A DNA stretch of 64,000 nt. It comes from Ruminococcus sp. (GTDB lineage Bacteria > Bacillota > Clostridia > Oscillospirales > Ruminococcaceae). Position 1 is the first letter of the stretch, and every line of letters starts with the position of its first letter. Below, piece after piece: positions 22,291 through 61,794 of the stretch. The notes beneath the pieces are model-generated. The model worked only from the letters and a program-made list of their open reading frames with translations, was not told the DNA's origin and made no database searches. The position numbers and the translations under genes are program-made. Location of the stretch: assembly GCA_014799805.1 (NCBI GenBank), contig JAAVHJ010000008.1, forward strand, positions 22,788 to 86,787, given 5' to 3'.

Positions 22291-22809
22291 TTATGCAGTT
22301 TCTTCTGGTGCCTGGTCTTTGTCCACAACAGCCTGCAATAATGCAGCCAATTTCTGAATAGGACCTTGCAGAGAACCAACCAATTGGGCAAGCAATACAT
22401 CTTTGGACGGAATTTTAGACAGAGCCAAAATTTTCGTTTCGTCAAAATATTCACCCTCAACAGAACCTGCTTTTAATTTGAAGTTTTCAGATTTTTCAGC
22501 AAATTCACCCAGAATACGAGCTGGGGCTGTCTGGTCAGTTGCAGAAACTGCAATAGCAGTTGTACCATTCAGAACATCATCAAAATCTGTGATACCGTTT
22601 GCATTAAATGCACGCTTCAACATTGTATTTTTTTCAACAAAATACTTTACATCAGCTTCACGAAGTTCTTTTCTTAATTTTGTATCCTGTTCTACAGTAA
22701 TACCTCTGTAATCAACGAGAACAACAGAAACACTGTTTTTAAATAATTCAGACAATTCTGCAACTCTTGCTTGCTTAGATTCAAGAACCTTTGCACTTGG
22801 CATAAACAT
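22291..22809 (-). CDS. rplJ: 50S ribosomal protein L10
   Basis: VVLVDYRGITVEQDTKLRKELREADVKYFVEKNTMLKRA. Confidence 0.97.
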   Translation of the reverse strand: MFMPSAKVLESKQARVAELSELFKNSVSVVLVDYRGITVEQDTKLRKELREADVKYFVEKNTMLKRAFNANGITDFDDVLNGTTAIAVSATDQTAPARILGEFAEKSENFKLKAGSVEGEYFDETKILALSKIPSKDVLLAQLVGSLQGPIQKLAALLQAVVDKDQAPEETA

Positions 22810-22824
22810 TCACCTCCACATAGC

Positions 22825-22975
22825 AATGTAATATAACGCATCGTATGGAGAACAAAAACTCCCCTGTAAAGCACAGAGGAGCAGAAAAAGCTTGATAAAT
22901 CAATCTTAATTGCACTCCTCGGTTGGATTTATGATTGCTATCTACCAACTGTCTTTAGAATACGACTTTGTTATT
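22825..22975 (-). ncRNA. Ribosomal protein L10 leader (autoregulatory mRNA leader)
   Basis: Structured leader upstream of rplJ containing ...ttgataaatcaatcttaattgcactcctcggttgg... and ctcccctgtaaagcacagaggag hairpin. Confidence 0.75.
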
Positions 22976-23022
22976 ATAGCATATCTTAACATATTTGTCA
23001 AGTGTTTTTTCAAAAAAATTTT

Positions 23023-60286: not shown

Positions 60287-61084
60287 TCAATCATGTTTCA
60301 CACAGATTCTGGCAAGCATGACACGATGAATACTATAAAATTTTTCTTTACTAGTTAAAGAAATGCTGGGACTGTTGAATATCATTCTTGATGTTTTGTC
60401 AGATTGAAATACAATTCTGCAACATGTACTTATTTCATGATTTTCTTTGTCGTCTAGCATATTCCACTTACCATTATGACGGCTACAAAATATATTCAGC
60501 AATTTTTCTTCACTAAATGTTTCATTATAACACATTGTTGAACCTTGTACTGACCAATCTTCCCGTTCTTCTTTCAAAGTTGTCATATTGATTAAAATAG
60601 TAGCTTCATTGTCTGTACAATGCAATGAAATCTTCAATTTTTGTCGCTGTCGTGGTTCTTTACAGCAAAACACAATGCCAGATAAGATAGCCGCACAGAA
60701 TAATTTTTTATTTTCAAAAATAAAAAATTCTTTCTTATCAGATACAAATTCCGTTTCTGCATAATTGCCGAAAATATCTTTTACTGCCTCGTCAATTTCC
60801 TGCAATTCAGAATTTACATCAAATAGTGTTTTGTCTTCTGAATTATTTAATATTCTTTTGATATAAAATGGTCTATAAATTGGATATAAATTTCCTCTCA
60901 TCCTCATAAATGTCTCATCTTGTTCATACCAACCTTTTGCATGTTCATTTTTTTCAACTGTGTCCACTAATAATTTCATAGATTGTACCGCTTGAAGTAC
61001 ACTATTATCCAATGGTAAATTATCAGAATTTTCAACAACTGTTAATGTCACTGCTCTGAACTTATATTCTTTACTGCAAGTCAT
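60287..61084 (-). CDS. Uncharacterised sensor/ATPase-like protein, 3' exon of intron-split gene (frame open upstream to ~61177)
   Basis: 265-aa ORF; same frame reads DCIDVANQCECNKTDNIKKQVYWKGDCLECK upstream of annotated ATG up to the intron. Confidence 0.7.
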   Translation of the reverse strand: MTCSKEYKFRAVTLTVVENSDNLPLDNSVLQAVQSMKLLVDTVEKNEHAKGWYEQDETFMRMRGNLYPIYRPFYIKRILNNSEDKTLFDVNSELQEIDEAVKDIFGNYAETEFVSDKKEFFIFENKKLFCAAILSGIVFCCKEPRQRQKLKISLHCTDNEATILINMTTLKEEREDWSVQGSTMCYNETFSEEKLLNIFCSRHNGKWNMLDDKENHEISTCCRIVFQSDKTSRMIFNSPSISLTSKEKFYSIHRVMLARICVKHD

Positions 61085-61167
61085 CTTACACTCTAAACAA
61101 TCACCTTTCCAATAAACTTGTTTTTTAATATTATCCGTTTTATTGCATTCACACTGATTCGCAACAT

Positions 61168-61540
61168 CAATGCAGTCTTATCATGACAGACAGACCTCTC
61201 ATGCTTTCACATGAGCGTAGACTATATCTTCACCTATTTTTATTCAAAAACAGGGCAACATTTTTCTTCCGCCCTTCGCTTGCGGTTTTACTCTCCCTCA
61301 AGGAGATAGTCGTTGGGGGTCTTCCGTATCTTTTATTTTTTAAGACTTAGGACTTTCCCTGCTAAACACCCATTGTTACAGCCCTTAGCATCAATACAAA
61401 TTGACTTTTATTTCAGCTTAGACCATCTCACTATTTTTTCTGATTTCTCACCATTCAGCTTACTGTTTCCAATTACTGTTTAGGTCGTGAGCTTTAGGGA
61501 TTAAAAGCATTTAACGTTGAGTTTGCACCATTTTCATGAT
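61168..61540 (-). ncRNA. Group I intron (td-like, probably subgroup IA), no internal ORF
   Basis: P1 hairpin UUUGU|AUCAU-GAAA-AUGGUGCAAA with U.G at 5' splice site; P7 strands GACTAT / ATAGTC; CAACGACTATCTCCTTGAGGGAGAGTA and GAAGATATAGTCTACGCTCATGTGAAAGCATGAG resemble the phage T4 td intron core (P7.1 and P9); 3' splice site uncertain (61168-61177). Confidence 0.85.
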
Positions 61541-61551
61541 ACAAAGGGTAT

Positions 61552-61794
61552 TCATTTCAATAAATTTATTAACTGCTTAGTTACCCAACAATTTTCTGGA
61601 ATTTTTAATAATTCTTGAATAAAATTCTCACCATCATAAGAACAATTCTTCCATGCACATTTCCAATTTTCATCAAAAATAAAAGCAAGATTTCCAGGTT
61701 CTTCGCAAAAACACCTTGCTATTCCTAAAGTTTCTGATTTCATAAAAAATCTCCTTTCCGAATAATTATTTTTACTATTTTTTATGCTTTTCAT
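61552..61794 (-). CDS. PAS-like N-terminal fragment, 5' exon of intron-split gene (likely start 61743)
   Basis: MKSETLGIARCFCEEPGNLAFIFDENWKCAWKNCSYDGENFIQELLKIPENCWVTKQLINLLK*; RBS aaaggag. Confidence 0.65.
   Translation of the reverse strand: MKSIKNSKNNYSERRFFMKSETLGIARCFCEEPGNLAFIFDENWKCAWKNCSYDGENFIQELLKIPENCWVTKQLINLLK

Follow-up and report, generated by a model that had tools for sequence, protein, structure and literature searches.

A group IA2 intron without open reading frames in a Ruminococcus protein gene: very probably the remnant of a group B IStron

What kind of element interrupts a protein gene on the minus strand of a Ruminococcus sp. contig, and where does it begin and end? 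The window, that is the whole stretch of 64,000 nucleotides (nt) analysed here (positions 22,788 to 86,787 of contig JAAVHJ010000008.1, assembly GCA_014799805.1), carries in this gene a segment that an earlier note, made from the letters alone, had placed at 61168-61540 and taken for a group I intron without open reading frame (ORF). We find that the element extends over 449 nt and is very likely what remains of an SrISt1-like IStron of group B (IS607-type), without an ORF and without an insertion sequence (IS) part. All coordinates refer to the window.

The limits of the element were derived from its flanks. Joining TGTTGGG (61584) to ATAATATT (61134) results in a stop-free ORF of 335 amino acids (aa), and the predicted protein shows no gap across the junction when aligned with about 20 homologues from genus-mates that have no intron (W-DNIKKQVYW versus W-EDAKKEVYW). 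We therefore assign the element to 61583-61135, with predicted splice limits at 61584^61583 (5′) and 61135^61134 (3′). The intron-free homologues read through 'DENWKIxW' and then 'LxVPxxxWEDxxxxVY' into the region 3′ of the element; the empty site TGTTGGGATAAT is consistent with them, and both exons are open and can be aligned over their whole length. Translation of the unspliced form stops after 63 codons. As GG is common to both ends, the exact cut is ambiguous by one or two bases, and TGGG^TAAC and CGG^AT were chosen by the published convention for group B, which was verified by RNA for BcISt1 (PMC4227781).

These positions differ from those proposed before. The real 5′ limit lies 43 nt further 5′ and the real 3′ limit 33 nt further 3′, and the comparison with intron-free orthologues, which the earlier note had named as a check, revealed homologues that are uninterrupted at 61584/61134. 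That the 5′ splice site follows UUUGU at 61541/61540 and the 3′ site is near 61168 is almost certainly wrong. UUUGU/GCAAA, previously read as P1, does form a good 5-bp helix ending in U.G, but this hairpin adjoins the real guide on its 3′ side and is P2, P1 being formed by GGG|UA with UACCC. Joining 61541 to 61168 does not restore the ORF: the result is either out of frame or has an in-frame stop, and about 43 nt of element sequence stay behind. Position 61168 falls into the 5′ strand of P9.2, the helix that is richest in compensatory changes, and the homologue alignment contradicts these limits. Two other choices, which would put the splice sites in frame with an ATG further downstream (61084) or with an 80-aa ORF ending at 61552, were rejected because the exons belong to one 335-aa protein according to the homologues.

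A covariance-model search returned a match to RF00028 on the minus strand (61412-61198) that covers the whole model with 44.3 bits and an E-value of 7e-10, a score short of the curated 50 bits. The minimum free energy (MFE) of the 449-nt strand is −110.5 kcal/mol compared to −89.5 ± 5.25 kcal/mol in shuffled sequences (z = −4.0), and none of 100 shuffles was as good. On the window sequence we could draw helices P1, P2, P3, P4, P6, P7, P7.1, P7.2, P8, P9, P9.1 and P9.2. When this 12-helix model was applied to four related introns, 90% of the cells were paired and 15 pairs had changed on both sides (5.5 ± 1.8 in shuffles, at most 8 with the partner slid), a comparison of four sequences with a structure drawn by hand from one of them, the window's, and with one sequence (L056) that aligned poorly in P1-P4. 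MFE folding and RNAalifold also found most of the hand-drawn helices, which show compensatory changes. The element has the P3-P9 core together with P7.1, P7.2 and the extended P9 region that mark subgroup IA2, and contains no ORF. The minus strand of the window carries a real group IA2 intron. The phage T4 td intron has the same layout, with P7.1/P7.2 and an extended P9 region; unlike the window element it encodes a homing endonuclease, and its exon ends with U at the 5′ splice site. Much of what had been noticed earlier holds up: the group I core on the minus strand, the P7 strands GACTAT/ATAGTC, the P7.1- and P9-like hairpins in a td-like arrangement, the lack of an ORF inside the intron, and the location in a chromosomal protein gene, whose ORF is restored when the flanks are joined.

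Group B IStrons insert after a site ending in GG, have U as first base, end with CGG, and combine an IA2 ribozyme with an IS607-type partner (PMC4227781). The target rule of this group (AGGG, TGGG or GAGG; first base U; no target duplication) applies to the window copy, as seen from TGTTGGG|TAACT and the empty site, and the 3′ terminus is ...AAAACGG|ATAATATT. At the place of the GAAUAA-like motif, after which tnpA/tnpB would be expected, GAAUG is present and no ORF follows; the element is therefore classed as an ORF-less remnant, as opposed to a complete IStron.

Among named elements, the closest is SrISt1, a group B (IS607-type) IStron published for Selenomonas ruminantium subsp. lactilytica, where it lies on plasmid pSRC1 (NC_017078; PMC4227781). 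Its ribozyme is 76% identical to the window copy over aligned positions, and both have the target TGGG, the first bases TAAC, the guide UACCC, the CGG end, and an in-frame insertion in a coding gene. SrISt1 comprises 2578 nt with IS607 transposase, TnpB and the right end ATTTATCGTAGCGG, of which the window copy has just the final CGG. Excision of SrISt1 restores a 557-aa sensor-kinase ORF.

Two closer relatives of 2015 and 2003 nt reside in a genus-mate, G014 (CANPYZ010000004 and CANPYZ010000002). Their ribozymes are 84% identical to the window copy over aligned positions, the match spanning nearly the whole element, and they have the same left end TGGG|TAACTAA, the CGG end and, in one case, the same insertion phase. 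Unlike the window copy, they contain a full TnpB and a truncated TnpA: in both, a GAAUGA motif is followed by an AU-rich repeat, the start of a truncated TnpA, which appears to be of IS607 type as it resembles the beginning of ORF A in SrISt1, then TnpB and the right end ATTTATCGTAGCGG. The 399-aa TnpB matches Cas12f1-like_TNB (6.5e-24) and OrfB_IS605 (4.6e-21), and is 62% identical to that of SrISt1. Excision restores an in-frame ORF in two different genes, which we take, by eye and not by family search, to encode a glycogen-phosphorylase-like protein and a GH9-like glycosidase. AU-rich complementary stretches are present in the G014 copies, and the AU-rich inverted-repeat (IR) stem is absent from the window copy.

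The ORF-less BcISt1 copies of emetic Bacillus cereus strains, with 482 nt the smallest published IStrons (PMC4227781), are likewise group B elements that lost both ORFs and kept the ribozyme. They retain the IR stem, whereas the window copy lost this as well and is shorter. It is an unusually small representative of an IStron kind that is already known, ORF-less IStrons having been published. The earlier note had regarded a short intron in an ordinary chromosomal gene as uncommon. Once the element is read as an IStron, this surprise falls away: 118 of 202 surveyed IStron insertions are intragenic, in genes of diverse function (PMC4227781). A degenerate IStron, which that note had mentioned as one of two asides, became the best-supported answer.

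How did the element come to be without an IS part? A maximum-likelihood tree built from the ribozymes (361 columns) separates the window copy and both G014 copies from SrISt1 and from more remote introns, with support 100. TnpB and the right end are common to SrISt1 and the G014 copies, so their common ancestor had the IS part, and as the window copy falls among IS-bearing copies, the simplest history is that it lost tnpA/tnpB and the right end. A parent IStron would have inserted after TGGG in the protein-coding gene without target duplication; the comparison with its relatives supports a later loss of tnpA/tnpB and the right-end repeats after GAAUG, which would have left the IA2 ribozyme and the two IStron ends. 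No TnpB was found in the window's genome, neither by PF07282 nor with the G014 TnpB as query, in an assembly that is 88% complete. The element is a single copy in this genome and can probably no longer move on its own. The TnpB TNB domain (PF07282) had 15 matches in G014 and none in the window's genome.

Some observations weigh against this origin or against present activity. The RF00028 score is below the curated gathering score of 50 bits, the first intron U faces an A where a G would usually form a U.G pair, and splicing is predicted from sequence. Beyond CGG, the tail shows no similarity that would link the 3′ end of the element to the right end of IStrons. The same family has a second CGG-ended intron without an IS part, so that IS-free forms need not all be remnants.

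The last two points relate to a stand-alone group IA2 lineage with IStron-like ends that never had an IS part, like the Turicibacter intron, and spread by reverse splicing or with host DNA. No IR stem or right-end repeat remains in the window copy, and IS-free relatives have been described: the group IA2 introns of Turicibacter and Fusobacterium also have no IS part and use IStron-like target sites (PMC4227781). The second CGG-ended intron, from another genus of the family (G300; C9, L071 638-1034), is a 397-nt, ORF-less and IS-free group I intron in a Maff2-like gene (GGGG|TAAGC...AAAACGG|ATG). Its excision gives an intact ORF, and it was not found in 149 relatives. The window copy differs from the Turicibacter and Fusobacterium introns by its CGG end and by grouping with IS-bearing copies, with the IS-bearing SrISt1 outside this cluster; its 5′ end matches IStron left ends, and no other IS-free copies were found among 38 genus genomes. 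We consider a stand-alone origin clearly unlikely. There is similarly little chance that the 449-nt element and the 397-nt intron form one IS-free lineage that inserts after GG-ending sites without an encoded protein; if true, such a lineage would represent the intron component that went into the assembly of group B IStrons.

The putative IStron remnant probably keeps the part that removes it from the mRNA. The 5′ exon ends with G, and the U after it faces A. Splicing after G is the published exception of group B IStrons (PMC4227781), and the A opposite the first intron U is a further deviation. SrISt1 and the two G014 copies also have this U-A pair, with GGGUA and UACCC identical in all four; the U after the splice site in the G300 intron can face G. 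In the proposed mechanism, P1 (exon GGG with guide CCC) would present the 5′ splice site to the P3-P9 core, and guanosine bound at P7 would attack after GGG. The freed exon could then attack after the terminal ...CGG, and ligation would rejoin TGG G^AT in frame for the 335-aa protein. Alternatively, the insertion may have inactivated the gene and the intron no longer splices, a view that overlaps with the remnant on origin and differs only on present function. The U-A pair in place of U.G, the single copy and the lack of a detected tnpB in the genome would fit a dead intron; intact core helices with compensatory changes, exons that are open and alignable end to end, and the recurrence of the U-A pair in the three IStrons speak against it. 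We regard a dead intron as unlikely.

The other aside of the earlier note, a regulatory ribozyme of the host gene as proposed for the pair of cyclic di-GMP (c-di-GMP) riboswitch and group I intron in C. difficile, is highly improbable. A change in splicing efficiency would alter protein yield, since the coding region is interrupted. However, an Rfam scan at gathering score detected no riboswitch family anywhere in the window, the intron is inside the coding region and not in a leader, and the insertion at this site was found in one species only. The relatives are mobile elements in unrelated genes, and the unspliced form would yield a truncated 63-aa peptide.

The probable ORF-less IStron remnant is an ordinary case that extends the known range of group B IStrons by one genus; its interest is in the U-A at the splice site and in a single genus having the complete element as well as a copy reduced to the ribozyme and two terminal motifs. 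This pair is a small natural test of the part needed for RNA excision, and of whether splicing after G works with U-A instead of U.G. A scan of the window at gathering score omits the intron because of its 44.3 bits; Rfam scans of this kind miss such introns, and host genes are therefore likely to be annotated as two fragments. The parts of the element are compiled in Table 1.

Table 1. Parts of the putative IStron remnant and of its host gene; window positions, all on the minus strand.
Feature	Position	Description	Basis
Group IA2 intron, probable remnant of a group B (SrISt1-type) IStron without ORF	61135..61583	449 nt	In-frame empty-site reconstruction; alignment with two genus-mate IStrons and SrISt1; RF00028 E=7e-10
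5′ exon	61584..61743	ATG at 61743 to ...TGT TGG G; 53 codons + 1 base	Spliced 335-aa ORF
3′ exon	60287..61134	AT AAT ATT AAA AAA CAA GTT TAT TGG ... TGA	Spliced ORF; genus-mate homologues
P1 5′ strand	61582..61586	Exon GGG + intron UA; predicted 5′ splice site after GGG; pairs with 61546-61550	
Internal guide sequence, P1 3′ strand	61546..61550	UACCC	
P2	61522..61545	10-bp GNRA hairpin (UUUGU/GCAAA)	Compensatory change
P3 5′ strand	61513..61519	CAACGUU; pairs with 61256-61262	Compensatory changes in SrISt1 (CAGUGUU/AAUACUG)
P3 3′ strand	61256..61262	AAUGUUG	
P4 5′ strand	61506..61509	UGCU; pairs with 61360-61363	
P4 3′ strand	61360..61363	AGCA	
P7 5′ strand	61306..61311	GACUAU; G-binding site	Invariant
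P7 3′ strand	61220..61225	AUAGUC	Invariant
P7.1	61293..61305	Hairpin	
P7.2	61269..61285	Hairpin	
P8	61233..61254	Hairpin	3 pairs changed on both sides
P9	61198..61215	Hairpin with GAAA loop	
P9.1	61174..61196	Hairpin	
P9.2	61152..61172	Hairpin; strands 61172-61166 / 61158-61152	Both-side changes in 5 of 7 pairs
Tail	61135..61151	UGAAUGCAAUAAAACGG; GAAUG motif (where related IStrons have the IS part), then ...CGG	tnpA/tnpB and AU-rich right end missing

The host gene (60287-61743) would encode, after splicing, the 335-aa product. Homologues of the downstream protein were found in 26 other genomes of the genus, and the family is present in 27 of 38 genus genomes and in none of 62 others. No Pfam family and no credible PDB sequence matched the host protein. 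By eye it presumably has a PAS-like N-terminus and a kinase-ATPase-like C-terminus, which we regard as a lead only.

A second RF00028 match in the genome (C21, 22 bits) was treated as chance because of its weak score and the lack of group I features by eye. Apart from the window, a covariance search of 396 genomes of the order gave 10 matches in four genomes, none of them a closer relative. Six of these, all group IA2 matches, are on three contigs of one genome (G473) and look like a phage with several introns; at least two of the sites are followed by tnpB-like ORFs. A pattern scan for the P7′-P9 motif hit mainly Patescibacteria and viral contigs, in addition to the two G014 copies; the exact motif GGTGAAGATATAGTCTACGCTC occurs in several contigs of Patescibacteria, or candidate phyla radiation (CPR). 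Elsewhere in the window, an ordinary L10 leader (RF00557, 62.6 bits) is located at 22844-22976 on the minus strand.
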